From positions 1 through 25,585 of IMG/VR virus record IMGVR_UViG_3300035703_000388: a stretch of DNA of 25,585 nucleotides; one strand, written 5' to 3'. The DNA is from a virus. A model generated the notes under the pieces. It had not been told where the DNA came from, made no database searches, and was given only the letters and a program-made list of their open reading frames with translations. The translations under genes were made by a program, and so were the position numbers. Shown piece after piece: positions 19,908 to 25,585 of this stretch. Within the stretch, counting starts at the first letter, position 1. Each line of letters starts with the position of its first letter.

Positions 19908-20032
19908 CTCCATTGCGTGTAGCAGATTGCTACTGCTTGATCGTTGTCAGGGTACTCTCCTGCGATGGCTTGCACACATCGTTGAATGTAGTCCGACTGC
20001 TTCTCTCCTGCGTTAGGTGTTGGAATTGGCAT
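19895..20032 (-). CDS. 45-aa conserved phage protein
   Basis: This short protein begins MPIPTPNAGEKQSDYIQRCV and ends AVAICYTQWREGK. I recall the same pattern (PKPxxGEKQSDFIxRC...FPDQ...AVCYSQW) in other Bacteroidota phage proteins, both free-standing and at the end of virion proteins. The start overlaps the 213-aa gene by 20 bp, and its end lies in a terminator stem. The function is unknown. Confidence 0.66.
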   Translation of the reverse strand: MPIPTPNAGEKQSDYIQRCVQAIAGEYPDNDQAVAICYTQWREGK

Positions 20033-20654
20033 AGTGTAGGTATAAATTGATTTGATTGAATAGCTGCTCCCTGTCCACGATTCCATTCTTGTCGTAGTAG
20101 ACGTAAACGTAGGGGGCATATTTTTCCTTGTACTGCTCGTTCTTGATCCGATGCTGCTCCTTTGCTCGCTGCTGATATGGCGTGTTCATCATACGATACG
20201 ATTCAGGCTTGATCTGAAGGCCAAGCAGAAGCGTTTTGTTGAAGAACATCTCGGCATCGATGCAGTAGTTGTGATCCACCTCGAATGTGGTACGTGCAAA
20301 ATGCGCATCAGGGAATGCGTAGTTCAGCTCCTCAATGGTCATCAGCTCCTTCGCAAAGCCATTCCACGTCTGACCTATCACACGATGGAAGATGTACTTC
20401 TTGATCGTCAGATCCTCAAGTTCGGGAAGTCGCTTCTTGAGTTCTTGGAATACCACCTTCAAACCATCCCAACCCTGCACCTCTTGGTAGTACTGTTCCC
20501 ATCCTTCGGGCGTTGGATTGGTTGTTGTTTGGTAGTAGTCCGACACCAACCGCACACATTCGCCAACGTATGTCTTGTAAAAAAACGGATTGATCTTGGC
20601 GTTCTTGTTTAACGCCTTGAAGGTATCGTTGGGAATGTCGATGGTGTAGATCAT
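20013..20654 (-). CDS. Possible PD-(D/E)XK-type nuclease, conserved phage protein
   Basis: This 213-aa protein begins MIYTIDIPNDTFKALNKNAK. The second half has TWNGFAKELMTIEELNYAFP, then FEVDHNYCIDAEMFF and LLLGLQIKPESYR, ending with YVYVYYDKNG. An acidic residue (Asp 127 or 133) followed by QIK (Gln 147, Lys 149) on a strand fits a PD-(D/E)XK core of the D-QxK variety seen in some restriction enzymes. This is a fold suggestion from motif spacing only. The ATG at 20654 overlaps the upstream stop by one base (TGATG), so I reject an ATG at 20705. Confidence 0.6.
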   Translation of the reverse strand: MIYTIDIPNDTFKALNKNAKINPFFYKTYVGECVRLVSDYYQTTTNPTPEGWEQYYQEVQGWDGLKVVFQELKKRLPELEDLTIKKYIFHRVIGQTWNGFAKELMTIEELNYAFPDAHFARTTFEVDHNYCIDAEMFFNKTLLLGLQIKPESYRMMNTPYQQRAKEQHRIKNEQYKEKYAPYVYVYYDKNGIVDREQLFNQINLYLHYANSNT

Positions 20655-21061
20655 CAATAGGCGTTGTAAACCGTGACGAGTTCTTGAAGTCGGCCTCGCA
20701 TACACGAACCGCAGTTGGTGGCTTGCACGTTGTCGTGAAATACTCGGTTGTAGATTTTATTCAATTCAGTCTGCTCAAATGCAGTCACTACGTTGCGATC
20801 CTTCATCGTGCCAATAAACTCGTATTCGGCCTGTGTCAGGCATTCAGGCTTGCGCCAACGCCAAATCTGATTGAGACGCTCCTTGCGAGCATCACATCCG
20901 CAGTCGATACCTGTGGTCTCGCTGAACCAATCAACCGCTGCCTTGATGCCTGTGGCGGTGGTGATCTTCTCTACCGTGTCTCCTAAACCGCTACTCTTGC
21001 GAGGCTTCCTTCCACGCTTGGTAGGTTCCGCTGCATTCTGATTGGATTCGTTCTCTTGCAT
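20654..21061 (-). CDS. Conserved Cys-containing phage protein
   Basis: This 135-aa protein has a disordered, basic N-terminus (TKRGRKPRKSS) with an AT-hook-like GRKPR core. A conserved body follows: GLGDTVEKITTATGIKAAVD, GIDCGCDARKERLNQIW, KPECLTQAEYEF and a C-terminal NCGSCMRGRLQELVTVYNAY. The CGC, CLT and CGSC positions could bind a metal. I remember the CGCDARKEKLN pattern from Bacteroidota phages but know no function. It overlaps the end of the sigma factor gene by 71 bp. A nucleoid- or DNA-associated role is possible. Confidence 0.68.
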   Translation of the reverse strand: MQENESNQNAAEPTKRGRKPRKSSGLGDTVEKITTATGIKAAVDWFSETTGIDCGCDARKERLNQIWRWRKPECLTQAEYEFIGTMKDRNVVTAFEQTELNKIYNRVFHDNVQATNCGSCMRGRLQELVTVYNAY

Positions 21062-21527
21062 TTTTTAAAGTGTTGAAAATTGAACGTGCTGAAATTTTTG
21101 TTTTTGATGCGAGGGTGCGCATACTCATATCGGTGTTATGATACAGGTCAAAGATCTTGCGATCGTACCAATGCCACTCCTCCGTGTTTTCCCATATCTC
21201 ATCGTAGAGTTCGACAATGGCTTCTTCAGCCTGTTGATTCGTATCTTCAAAGATCAGCTCATCTTCAAGTTGACTCACGTCTACAAACTCGATTCGGCTC
21301 TTGGCCTTCATCAAGGTGGCGTACATATTCCGAAGCGTAACGTACACAAAAAAGGTGTTCACCTCTTGCTCGTTGTACATTATTTTTTCAGGCTCGTCAA
21401 TGTACTTATACAGGCGAACGTACATCTCTTGGACAATATCGTTGGCAAGGTCTTGGTCTGCACCAAAACTCTTGACCATCCGAATCCAATCGGTGTGACG
21501 TTCAGCGAGTACGTTTAAGAGTTCCAA
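20991..21527 (-). CDS. Phage-encoded sigma-70 family factor (ECF-like)
   Basis: This 178-aa protein fits a two-domain sigma factor. Residues about 8-75 match region 2 (TDWIRMVKSFGADQDLANDI, VQEMYVRLYKY, then TFFVYVTLRNMYATLMK). Residues about 118-165 match region 4, with WYDRKIFDLYHNTDMSMRTL and a helix-turn-helix (KISARSIFNTLKNARERI). It would direct host RNA polymerase to phage promoters. No ATG fits; the start is a TTG at 21527, overlapping the 49-aa gene by 13 bp, and an ATG later would cut into region 2. The AACTAAATAA elements are a possible target. Confidence 0.78.
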   Translation of the reverse strand: MELLNVLAERHTDWIRMVKSFGADQDLANDIVQEMYVRLYKYIDEPEKIMYNEQEVNTFFVYVTLRNMYATLMKAKSRIEFVDVSQLEDELIFEDTNQQAEEAIVELYDEIWENTEEWHWYDRKIFDLYHNTDMSMRTLASKTKISARSIFNTLKNARERIQSECSGTYQAWKEASQE

Positions 21528-21664
21528 GATAGTTCGAGCAGTATGATGCCGAGTGCAACCTGTACCTGTTGGATGGTTTCTTCTTCGTCAAGGTAGTCGG
21601 TCTTTGACCAATTCACACCAACAACCAAGCCGTAGATAGGGTAAATGCCTACGTTAAAATTCAT
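21515..21664 (-). CDS. 49-aa small conserved phage protein
   Basis: This short protein begins MNFNVGIYPIYGLVVGVNWS and ends VALGIILLELSWNS. It resembles small Bacteroidota phage proteins with an IYPxxGFVLGINYW start and a hydrophobic end; these sit near replication or regulator genes. Overlaps of 11 bp with the DnaA-like gene and 13 bp with the sigma factor gene support translation. The function is unknown. Confidence 0.66.
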   Translation of the reverse strand: MNFNVGIYPIYGLVVGVNWSKTDYLDEEETIQQVQVALGIILLELSWNS

Positions 21665-22067
21665 CAAATGTCTTTTTCAGGGTTAAATATAGCTCTTTAT
21701 ATTTAATTAACTCCGTTACAATATCATTAAGCCTTTTGATTTCATCCTCAAGAGACTTAATATCTACCGCATCCAATACCTCAATTGGGTACTCATCACG
21801 GATCTCACAGGCTACTTTGTACGCCCATCGGTAGTCTTTGTAATTGAGTCTTGATTTGTGTTCCTTTTGGGCGTGGACTACGGATGAATGGTCACGGTCA
21901 AGGATTGAACCAAGCTCCATCAGCGTTGCCTTGTGTCGGTAGGCATTGATGAATGCGCCTCTTGCGAGTGTGTATTCTCTTTTGCGTGTGTCCTTGTCAT
22001 CGAGTCCAAGACGTGCCATCAAAGCGTTCTTCGCTCGCTTCATTTGTTGTAGTTCAAAGGCTCTCAT
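21654..22067 (-). CDS. DnaA domain IV-like DNA-binding protein
   Basis: This 137-aa protein begins MRAFELQQMKRAKNALMARL and holds a C-terminal DnaA-type helix-turn-helix: TRKREYTLARGAFINAYRHK, then LMELGSILDRDHSSVVHAQK. The RDHSSVVHA element (residues 58-66) is close to the DnaA signature that contacts the DnaA box. There is no AAA+ domain. The C-terminal third is a coiled coil (SLEDEIKRLNDIVTELIKY), which suggests a dimer. The ATG at 22067 overlaps the upstream stop as ATGA; an ATG at 22073 is also possible. It could bind the phage origin or a promoter. Confidence 0.76.
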   Translation of the reverse strand: MRAFELQQMKRAKNALMARLGLDDKDTRKREYTLARGAFINAYRHKATLMELGSILDRDHSSVVHAQKEHKSRLNYKDYRWAYKVACEIRDEYPIEVLDAVDIKSLEDEIKRLNDIVTELIKYKELYLTLKKTFDEF

Positions 22068-22294
22068 TTGCATTTGCAGAGTGTTGCTCTGCCCTCTTTA
22101 GTGGTTTCTATTATTTTGGTGATCGGTACTTCAAAGTGCTTGTGGTCGGATAGCCTCTTGAATTTAAAGAAGCTGCACCACTCCACAAGTTTATCCTCCC
22201 AATCTTGGATGATTTGGTAGTCCAAGCAGATGTAGTCAACGCCATCCACACGGAAGCATTCATACTGCTGAAAAGGAGAGAATATCTGCTTCAT
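22064..22294 (-). CDS. 76-aa protein, unknown
   Basis: This protein begins MKQIFSPFQQYECFRVDGVD and has IIQDWEDKLVEWCSFFKFKR, ending in KEGRATLCKCK. It contains four Cys, two of them in the C-terminal CKC. Both ends have ATGA overlaps with neighbouring genes. No domain is recognised, although its place between the helicase region and the DnaA-like gene suggests a replication accessory. Confidence 0.62.
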   Translation of the reverse strand: MKQIFSPFQQYECFRVDGVDYICLDYQIIQDWEDKLVEWCSFFKFKRLSDHKHFEVPITKIIETTKEGRATLCKCK

Positions 22295-22602
22295 AGGTTG
22301 TCCTCAATAATCCGTTGCAGTCGCTCTATCTCCATCACCATTTCTTCGTTGTTGATACGGAGCTGCGCATTGGCGAGCATTACCTCGTTGAGCTTACGGT
22401 TGGCAAACAATCGGTAGTCAATAAACTGCTGCAAGAGTTGGTCTGCGTTGTGGCAGTTCATCACGTGGTCAAGGAGTTCATCCTGTATCTCACGCCCTTT
22501 GGATTTGTCTGCTGCTTGATGGGCAAGCCATATCGCAGTACCCGAAAGCATCAGTTGCTTCTCCCTGATGTAAAGGTCGTGGAGTTCTTCAGAAGGGTAC
22601 AT
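22291..22602 (-). CDS. 103-aa helical protein, unknown
   Basis: This protein begins MYPSEELHDLYIREKQLMLS, is predicted helical throughout and ends in a coiled coil (EEMVMEIERLQRIIEDNL). Its first 14 bases overlap the end of the helicase gene, so that the codons for DDVPF of the helicase also serve as its start. It could be a helicase-loading or regulatory partner, but no domain is recognised. Confidence 0.64.
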   Translation of the reverse strand: MYPSEELHDLYIREKQLMLSGTAIWLAHQAADKSKGREIQDELLDHVMNCHNADQLLQQFIDYRLFANRKLNEVMLANAQLRINNEEMVMEIERLQRIIEDNL

Positions 22603-23533
22603 CGTCAGGGTTTATTAGTTCAACGGGTTCATCTCTCTTTTGCGTCAACAAATTACGCCCATTTATTTTGAATCCTACGTTCCCAATCATTGACTGAAGA
22701 ACAAGGGGCGTATCAAGCGGAGTTACCCTACCACCCGTTTCCATCTCCTTGACTTTGCGGACGTGGACGTGAGTATAAATCCAATCCGTTTCGTGCTGCG
22801 AGTATCGGTGGATGATGACTACCGCATCAGCTCGGTTGCCCCACTTACCTCCTCCTTCAATGTCAGAGGTCATCGGTGGCATCGGCATACCCTCGTATGG
22901 GTGGCCTTTGTAGTGCGTTCTGCGCATTGCTTCCGTAACGGGGTGAGTATTCACAATAGTGGTCACGTTGTTCTTGTGGGCATATACTCGGATGGCGGAT
23001 GCTACCTCATAGTGGTACTCGTGCATCCCTGTTTTGCCCAACTTCTTTTGGTCGGTGGTGAGCGAGTTGTACGGATCAATAAGCGCACCTGTGTAGTCCC
23101 ATTCATTCTTGATGGACTCCATAACCTCAATGAGGTCAAAGGCGTTGAATAGCCTGTTGCCATCAATGAATTGGAAGTACTCGTTGATCCAATCCAACTT
23201 GCGGTGCATCGTAAGCTCATCAATTCCTTGAATGGGCTTGCACACCATAAACTCAATGAGCTTTCGCTTGAGCGATGCGACCTCGTTTTCTGCCGAGTAG
23301 ATGAGCCACTTCTTGCCCATATTGTAGGACTGCAAAAGCATCAAGTACATCAGCGTGTGTGTCTTGCCCACGTTGGCGTGGCCTGTGACTACGATGAACT
23401 CGCCATCCTTGAAGCGGATGTACTCATCAAGCTCGTAGACACCGAGCTTGCCTGTGTCAAAGTATTTGCCCTTCAACGCCCTTTGAAGGTAGGGAAGCGA
23501 GGCTTCGTTTGGTAGTAAGTCGGGATGTTTCAT
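22589..23533 (-). CDS. DnaB/RecA-fold replicative helicase-like ATPase
   Basis: This 314-aa protein has Walker A GHANVGKT at residues 51-58, YSAENE at 79-84 (a likely catalytic Glu), Walker B ALIDPYNSL at 150-158, and TIVNTHPVT at 192-200, matching the H3 motif of the DnaB and gp4 helicases. The ring-forming DnaB N-terminal domain is absent, so it resembles the compact phage helicases or a RepA-like ATPase. The C-terminus ends NPDDVPF, close to the SSB tip that recruits replication partners. I chose the ATG at 23533, which carries the ACCAA leader, over one at 23560. A terminator lies upstream. Confidence 0.8.
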   Translation of the reverse strand: MKHPDLLPNEASLPYLQRALKGKYFDTGKLGVYELDEYIRFKDGEFIVVTGHANVGKTHTLMYLMLLQSYNMGKKWLIYSAENEVASLKRKLIEFMVCKPIQGIDELTMHRKLDWINEYFQFIDGNRLFNAFDLIEVMESIKNEWDYTGALIDPYNSLTTDQKKLGKTGMHEYHYEVASAIRVYAHKNNVTTIVNTHPVTEAMRRTHYKGHPYEGMPMPPMTSDIEGGGKWGNRADAVVIIHRYSQHETDWIYTHVHVRKVKEMETGGRVTPLDTPLVLQSMIGNVGFKINGRNLLTQKRDEPVELINPDDVPF

Positions 23534-23551
23534 ATTCTGATTGGTGTTGCT
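23534..23551 (-). promoter_or_regulatory. ACCAA leader of the helicase gene
   Basis: The minus strand reads AGCAACACCAATCAGAAT and then ATG. ACCAA lies seven bases before the start. An imperfect -7 box, TATATTAG, lies just upstream, after the terminator of the preceding gene. Confidence 0.5.
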
Positions 23552-23574
23552 AATATACAAACATTACTGAAATA

Positions 23575-24628: not shown

Positions 24629-24849
24629 TGGATGGCGAAGTGATGATCAAGTTTTGCTACCTCTGCGAGTAGCTCTTGCTCTTTGTATTTCGCCTGTTGG
24701 CGTTCAGCATACGAGTTGCCGCAGTTGGCGAACAGAGAAGCACACTCCTCAAGGATAAAGTCAATCTTTCTGCGTTTGGCGGGATTAGTATAGTACTGCA
24801 TACTTGACATTGATTGTTTCGCTTGTTGTGCTAACTCCTGATTGCTCAT
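24604..24849 (-). CDS. 81-aa helical protein, unknown
   Basis: This protein begins MSNQELAQQAKQSMSSMQYY and continues TNPAKRRKIDFILEECASLF. A later charged helix (AERQQAKYKEQELLAEVAKL) follows. No domain is recognised. The ATG at 24849 gives a 65-bp overlap with the upstream gene; internal ATGs at 24810 and 24801 would reduce this, so the start is uncertain. Confidence 0.6.
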   Translation of the reverse strand: MSNQELAQQAKQSMSSMQYYTNPAKRRKIDFILEECASLFANCGNSYAERQQAKYKEQELLAEVAKLDHHFAIQCGYQQAD

Positions 24850-25069
24850 CTTTGATCTCTTGTTTTCTTTGGCGGTCTAATTCAAACTCAAGATGCGCAA
24901 TGGCCTTCTTGATGTCTTGGGTGATGGGGTTGTTTGGCTTCTTACCTGCCCTCATCAGGTAGGTCAGCGCAGTCCCGATGTTGTAGTTGTCGGGTTGGAA
25001 GTCCATCACCACATCCTTCGCCTCTATTCCGAGAGTCTTGCCGATGTAGTACGTTGGTGTCTTGCTCAT
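24785..25069 (-). CDS. DUF3310-like protein (SaV-type)
   Basis: This 94-aa protein begins MSKTPTYYIGKTLGIEAKDV and has NYNIGTALTYLMRAGKKPNN, then ITQDIKKAIAHLEFELDRQR. The pattern N-(Y)-G-A-x-Y-x-RAGKK followed by a DxxKAxxxLE helix is that of DUF3310, common in early regions of phages and once linked to nucleotide metabolism. The function is not established. It is the first gene after the regulatory gap and has a leader that resembles the ACCAA type (AAACCATCAGACA). Confidence 0.76.
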   Translation of the reverse strand: MSKTPTYYIGKTLGIEAKDVVMDFQPDNYNIGTALTYLMRAGKKPNNPITQDIKKAIAHLEFELDRQRKQEIKDEQSGVSTTSETINVKYAVLY

Positions 25070-25085
25070 TGTCTGATGGTTTGCT

Positions 25086-25093
25086 CAAAGGTA
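25086..25093 (-). promoter_or_regulatory. Candidate early promoter -7 box
   Basis: The minus strand reads TACCTTTG here, a full match to TAnnTTTG, 16 bases before the ATG at 25069. The -33 element is only weak (a T-rich run about 20 bases upstream), so the call is moderate. A transcript from here would have a very short leader. Confidence 0.45.
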
Positions 25094-25168
25094 AATCATC
25101 CCAATACAAAAAAATGTAGTCGCTCACTATTTAGAATGATTAAAAATTAGCATAATCTATGCATAGGT

Positions 25169-25292
25169 ACTTGCGTATGTAAAGATTATTTTGTTTTTTA
25201 TACAAGTTACTTGACTTATATAGTTAAACTATAAGTTTACTAACTTATCAAGTAAGTCAACTTACCAAGTACTTGAAAGAAAAAGAAACTTG
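25169..25292. repeat. Cluster of YAAGT/ACTTR half-sites
   Basis: At least twelve copies of CAAGT, TAAGT or their complements lie in 124 bp. They form several dyads: CAAGT-T-ACTTG at 25203-25213, TAAGT-CA-ACTTA at 25253-25264, CAAGTACTTG at 25266-25275, plus a TATAGTT-A-AACTATA dyad at 25219-25233. The arrangement suggests a multi-site binding region for a dimeric protein. Confidence 0.6.
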
Positions 25293-25406
25293 ACAAAGAA
25301 AAAGAAAGGAATCTTGCTTCTGCTGCGTTATTATATGCAAAACCATACAACCATACCACTTTGGGTAGAAAGTGTATTAGAACGCAAATAAACGCTATCT
25401 ACGGGC

Positions 25407-25585
25407 TTATTCGGTCAACTTGTCCACCCACCGCTTGAATAGGTAGATGATGAGCAGAGCAACCAACGAACCGAAGACAAGTTGGTCAAAGTTCCACCCA
25501 TTGCGCTTTGGCTCTTGCTTGGTCAGCACCTTCGTTTGGGTGACACGGATCGTATCAGGCAGGCACGTTGCCTCAACCACGACCT
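25407..25585 (-). CDS. C-terminal part of a single-span membrane protein
   Basis: The frame is open from the right window edge (first full codon at 25583) and ends with TAA at 25407, giving 58 residues. It reads VVVEATCLPDTIRVTQTKVL, then NFDQLVFGSLVALLIIYLFK, with one clear membrane helix close to the C-terminus and a short basic-then-acidic tail (RWVDKLTE). A CLPDTIRV stretch before the helix resembles small phage membrane proteins with a Cys-Pro-Asp-Thr segment. A lysis or spanin role is possible, but the N-terminus is missing. Confidence 0.6.
   Translation of the reverse strand, partial: VVVEATCLPDTIRVTQTKVLTKQEPKRNGWNFDQLVFGSLVALLIIYLFKRWVDKLTE

Follow-up and report, generated by a model that had tools for sequence, protein, structure and literature searches.

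The stretch of DNA analysed here – referred to below as the window – is a 25,585-bp virus record from IMG/VR (IMGVR_UViG_3300035703_000388), linear and probably a fragment, whose clear genes all lie on the minus strand. A gap at 25128–25406, between a lysis-region gene (named lysU here) and the early operon, holds the element in question: a dense array of short YAAGT/ACTTR pentamers. The operon at whose head it stands includes a DnaB-like helicase and a RusA-like gene; its full order is a short open reading frame (ORF), a DUF3310-like gene, the RusA-like gene, ‘SSB’ (a label that reflects gene position only), the helicase, a DnaA domain IV-like gene and a sigma-like gene. The array is real and conserved across a whole phage family. 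We class it with multi-site origin or operator arrays, among which it is a variant marked by an unusual strand-symmetric layout of 4.2 bp; its binder and its role are inferred.

Twelve pentamers fall within 25157–25292 (spanning 25169–25292), eleven of them in the main array (25203–25292), where, read as A[G/C]T units in both orientations, they follow a lattice of about 4.2 bp; the twelfth is a CAAGT in the spacer of the early promoter. Dinucleotide shuffles of 25157–25292 contain 2.6 pentamers on average and nine at most, and none of 20,000 reaches twelve, so that the dense cluster reported by the first-pass annotation holds up against chance. Nowhere else is this density equalled: elsewhere in the window no 136-bp stretch holds more than four pentamers, and whole relatives carry one large cluster each. 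As the window total (92, with 101 expected) is not raised, the enrichment is local. Two further elements that had been listed with the array – the CTATGCATAG palindrome and the AACTATA dyad (TATAGTTTAACTATA) – turned out to be lineage-specific, being found in 14 and 3 of 101 distinct relatives, respectively. The functional stretch is also longer than 25157–25292: it takes in the promoter and, with it, an A-rich block and a polypyrimidine repeat just beyond these coordinates.

Relatives were collected by searches with the DUF3310-like and DnaA-like proteins, which yielded more than 200 IMG/VR loci, some of them repeats of one contig. Every one of the 166 loci with both flanking genes (105 distinct sequences) carries the cluster in the same gap between lysis-type and early genes, at 5–14 pentamers per 136 bp, and close relatives have thus not lost it. 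None of 200 shuffles attains the observed density in 96 of the 105 distinct sequences, and five do in the worst case. Within the array, sites shift, flip and change from one relative to another – both positions and orientations turn over – as is usual in the evolution of binding arrays. Four loci considered as array-less exceptions (L003, L030, L036 and L037) do have the array, a gene having been inserted between it and the DUF3310-like gene; the insertion lies exactly at the overlap of the short ORF with the DUF3310 ATG, and array and promoter are intact. Another locus, L060, joins a g1 array and DUF3310-like gene to g2 downstream early genes, and is apparently a recombinant, although it might be an assembly chimera.

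Although the pentamers are enriched, the unit is captured better by a strand-symmetric A[G/C]T on the lattice than by YAAGT/ACTTR. A[G/C]T centres tend to lie 4–5, 9, 12–13, 16–17, 21, 25–26, 29 or 33 bp apart, with low counts between these peaks, and the shorter peaks are seen in every orientation pair. The spectral power of A[G/C]T at 4.2 bp is 4.87, compared with 1.09 ± 0.23 in dinucleotide shuffles and 2.62 ± 0.41 with permuted spacings (whose maximum across all periods is 3.77) – although in this and the other lattice tests the arrays are related, so that their independence is overstated. The best period is 4.1–4.3 bp in 75 of 90 distinct arrays, and a period of about 4.2 bp corresponds to five units per two helical turns. 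AGT and ACT, both common, share one lattice phase, which, counted from the promoter, is alike in three separate segments (1.83, 1.70 and 2.02 bp). The phase is held tightly close to the promoter, with a contribution from homology, and less so farther out, where the observed power (14.5) is reached in some trials with random offsets (mean 2.7, maximum 20.7). Between −98 and −19, 70% of units lie on the grid, where chance would place 40%. Array length shows no quantisation in 4.2-bp steps, and the motifs returned by unguided motif finding overlap, cluster around TAAGTTA and carry little information. A phage protein – possibly a filament of DnaA domains – might contact A[G/C]T every 4.2 bp regardless of strand, wrapping the DNA beside the early promoter; we regard this as speculative and rather unlikely. 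If true, it would amount to an origin or promoter architecture with an unusual way of reading DNA, of which, to our knowledge, no counterpart has been described.

The elements flanking the array are likewise conserved. The early promoter (25154–25183, minus strand) has TTKACAT in 85 of the 101 distinct relatives; its form is TTGACA-N17-TAATTT in 26 and TTTACA-N18-TAGATT in the window. The single CAAGT in its spacer (CGCAAGTAC; 25169–25173, minus strand) keeps a fixed position in 70. The A-rich block (TAAAAAACAAAATAAT; 25184–25200, minus strand), which occupies the interval between array and promoter, is a conserved block in the alignment and is present in 64 of the 101 relatives, may be UP-element-like or easily melted. 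The outer edge of the array is formed by a polypyrimidine direct repeat, TTTCTTTTTCTTT-(GT)CAAGT-TTCTTTTTCTTTC (25276–25310, minus strand), present in 83. No Rfam match at E ≤ 1 and no terminator-like site was found.

A candidate binder is encoded within the early operon. The DnaA domain IV-like protein (21654–22073, minus strand; 139 residues) has no AAA+ part and matches Pfam Bac_DnaA_C with E = 1.2e-4 and 22.5 bits, under the cut-off. Its AlphaFold2 (AF2) model (pLDDT 85.7) finds its best Foldseek matches in 3pvp and 1j1v, both DnaA DNA-binding domains on DNA (TM 0.69–0.70 by target length, probability 1.0). The protein retains a DHS[ST] recognition motif. Among its relatives, D61 and H62 are invariant, as is the C-terminal tail (nearly so over its full YKELYLTLK[KR]TF[DN]EF span), although the DNA-binding domain goes down to about 50% identity. 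The tail is likely a partner-binding motif, and the DnaB-like helicase (22589–23560, minus strand; Pfam DnaB_C E = 4.1e-6, 26.8 bits, cut-off 27) is a plausible partner. Among cultured phages the DnaA-like protein has no match, and no relative was found in bacterial genomes. The DnaA-like gene, a 50-residue ORF and the sigma-like gene follow one another at 20991–22073 (minus strand), a row that recalls certain gene transfer agents with a split DnaA-like/GafA arrangement.

In the window’s group of 30 loci, array distance was compared with the protein distances of nine nearby genes, and the DnaA-like protein gave the highest correlation (rho 0.37–0.41; 0.25–0.31 as a partial correlation on the other eight genes, p 0.007–0.02). 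The helicase and SSB reach 0.25–0.28. Since DUF3310, g81 and RusA, which lie between the array and the DnaA-like gene, are uncorrelated with the array (0.01–0.11), simple linkage does not explain the covariation; the sigma-like gene and g135, just downstream of the DnaA-like gene, show about zero correlation in a 22-locus subset. A comparison of motif variants (‘flavours’) did not cleanly separate the DnaA-like types. This covariation is modest and statistical, and suggestive only.

Of the remaining genes, lysU is represented by its 3′ part (25407–25583, minus strand) and runs past the window end; in the relatives G007 and G001 it encodes 140 residues, and in G007 it adjoins a peptidase-M15-like ORF. 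On the promoter side, the first ORF is the short one (MSDYIFLYWDDLPL...; 24942–25127, minus strand), which starts about 30 nt past the promoter, has a conserved YWDD[LV]PL and overlaps the start of the next gene out of frame, as it also does in the relatives examined. That next gene, the DUF3310-like query (24785–25069, minus strand), matches PHROG 236 with E = 1.4e-13 and Pfam PF11753 with E = 5.9e-4 and 20.3 bits, under the curated cut-off of 24. Farther away, a protein encoded at 20013–20705 (minus strand) matches the Pfam MjaI restriction endonuclease family above the curated cut-off (E = 2.4e-6); at its place, G007 and G001 have an unrelated-looking protein of 180 residues. A host from the Bacteroidota is probable, because the sole cultured matches of the capsid protein are Nonlabens phages (32% identity) and the cultured terminases closest to the window’s are in Parabacteroides and Bacteroides phages. 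Nonlabens phage P12024L, whose capsid is 32% identical, has no comparable pentamer cluster.

Taken on its own, the proposal that the array binds protein of some kind is highly probable. Family-wide conservation with site turnover is best fitted by the reading of the first-pass annotation, an array bound by a regulator or an origin-binding protein, even if two of the dyads listed in its support are not conserved. The annotation’s candidate, the DnaA-like protein, has in its favour the best covariation with the array and a model that matches DnaA–DNA structures; it is unproven all the same, with lysU nearly equal and some mismatched pairs, and we put its chances of being the binder at about even. 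That the array functions as a replication origin appears a little less probable than that, and the combined proposal – a multi-site array upstream of the early promoter on which the phage’s DnaA-like protein assembles cooperatively, for origin function, control of the early promoter or both – is one we favour tentatively, at slightly under even chances. Early transcription would start at the promoter, whose conservation is observed and whose activity is predicted. The DnaA-like protein made from the operon would then fill the A[G/C]T lattice and the CAAGT of the promoter spacer; these sites are seen in the DNA, their occupation is presumed. The resulting complex may open or wrap the flanking A/T-rich DNA, its invariant tail may recruit the phage’s DnaB-like helicase to establish a replication origin, and it might also shut down or retune the early promoter.

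Several observations weigh against this proposal. Standard DnaA boxes (TTATNCACA), which the first-pass reading did not require, are absent from the array even though the DnaA-like protein keeps its DHS[ST] motif, and the window is depleted of them, with 25 near matches (at most one mismatch) against 46 expected, of which only TTTTATACA at 25196 touches the array. No long iterons (17–30 bp in at least three copies) were found, the longest direct repeats being pairs of 24 and 17 nt at 71–76% identity. GC skew gives no consistent origin signal, as its extremes disagree between the closed relatives G001 and G002 (exact overlaps of 127 and 68 nt); an apparent terminal repeat in G007 proved not to be real (37% identity ungapped). 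On the protein side, the Foldseek E-values of the DnaA-like model are weak (0.08–0.14), and flanking lysU follows close behind in covariation (rho 0.30, partial 0.25), the DnaA-like gene coming top in 55–73% of bootstraps (274 of 500 in one run). Near-identical arrays go with different DnaA-like types in L003/L004 and in L044/L049/L053, and L060 pairs a g1 array with a g2 DnaA-like protein. The binder could also be a host protein or another phage protein.

The array might instead serve transcription alone, as an operator or enhancer through which a phage- or host-encoded regulator controls the early promoter, and have no role in replication – possible, though well short of an even chance, and nearly as likely as the combined proposal. 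It would then resemble omega-heptad arrays or the target of a GafA-type DnaA-like activator, and its place just upstream of a conserved promoter, with a common lattice phase and one site in the promoter spacer, fits this well. A dozen or more sites are, however, many for one promoter; the operon includes genes for replication, and no alternative start site for replication is evident. DnaA-like proteins can activate transcription. One example is GafA of the gene transfer agent RcGTA, which joins a DnaA-like DNA-binding domain to a sigma-like part and binds DNA upstream of promoters; in Hyphomicrobiales, gafA is preceded by a separate gene for a DnaA-like protein (PMC9638019). In the window, the DnaA-like gene likewise comes two genes before a sigma-like one. 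The likeness to GafA considered here is one of DnaA-like fold, and the portion of the source consulted describes no repeat array for GafA (PMC9638019).

Three further explanations seem much less probable. Single-stranded hairpins or a cruciform, serving as a priming or nicking site in place of duplex sites, are suggested by folding energies below those of dinucleotide shuffles (mean z −2.9 in 19 arrays); against a random-orientation control that keeps the units, however, the mean z is only −0.84 (0.12 for the window), and the place and arms of the hairpin differ between relatives. Hairpins were therefore rejected as the main feature, being mostly a by-product of units in both orientations, and this reading is improbable. 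Slightly less credible still is a functionless, decayed (AAGT)n tetranucleotide repeat spread by slippage: direct spacings of 4 and 5 bp occur often, and runs such as ACTTACTTACTTACTT are present in some relatives, but conservation in 166 of 166 loci at high divergence, and AGT and ACT kept common in a single phase, are not what simple slippage and decay would uphold. Least probable of all is a terminase recognition (pac) site for headful packaging. There is one array per genome, a small-terminase ring could read evenly spaced short motifs, and the window has a large terminase gene and likely, judged by position, a small one; the array nevertheless lies about 10 kb from these genes and beside the early promoter, and no test favoured packaging.

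The proposed DnaA-like complex has partial parallels among known systems. Like bacterial oriC, the array has several sites beside A/T-rich DNA and a candidate binder with the DnaA domain IV fold, but it differs in its lack of TTATNCACA boxes, in repeat unit and spacing and in a protein without AAA+. The known signals for phi29 p6 repeat at about 12 bp. This phage protein forms a multimeric DNA complex, as is proposed here, and is active in both the start of replication and the early-to-late switch (PMC10899789); whereas p6 restrains DNA as a superhelix, the array here has short, explicit motifs at 4.2 bp. In plasmid pSM19035, omega (ParB) is a small protein that cooperatively binds 7–10 short, non-palindromic repeats of mixed orientation, each weak singly, that overlap promoters (PMC9499535). 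The array here likewise consists of short mixed-orientation repeats at a promoter, but those of omega are gapless 7-bp WATCACW heptads, in contrast to A[G/C]T at about 4.2 bp, and their binder is a ribbon-helix-helix protein acting in partition; neither a ParA partner nor a ribbon-helix-helix ParB was found among 20 window proteins scanned against Pfam, a subset of its ORFs. In PLE, the DNA-binding domain of RepA covaries with the origin iterons while its C-terminal domain is conserved (PMC8263062), much as the array here and the DnaA-like domain vary together, with the tail kept invariant. In PLE, a RepA_N domain binds three semi-palindromic iterons, each about 30 bp long (PMC8263062), as opposed to the A[G/C]T units here, for which the covariation is modest and the origin role predicted.

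Small phages of this kind have no recognised polymerase or AAA+ initiator. The array, together with a stand-alone DnaA domain IV-like protein, provides a specific candidate origin or regulatory system for a large uncultured family.
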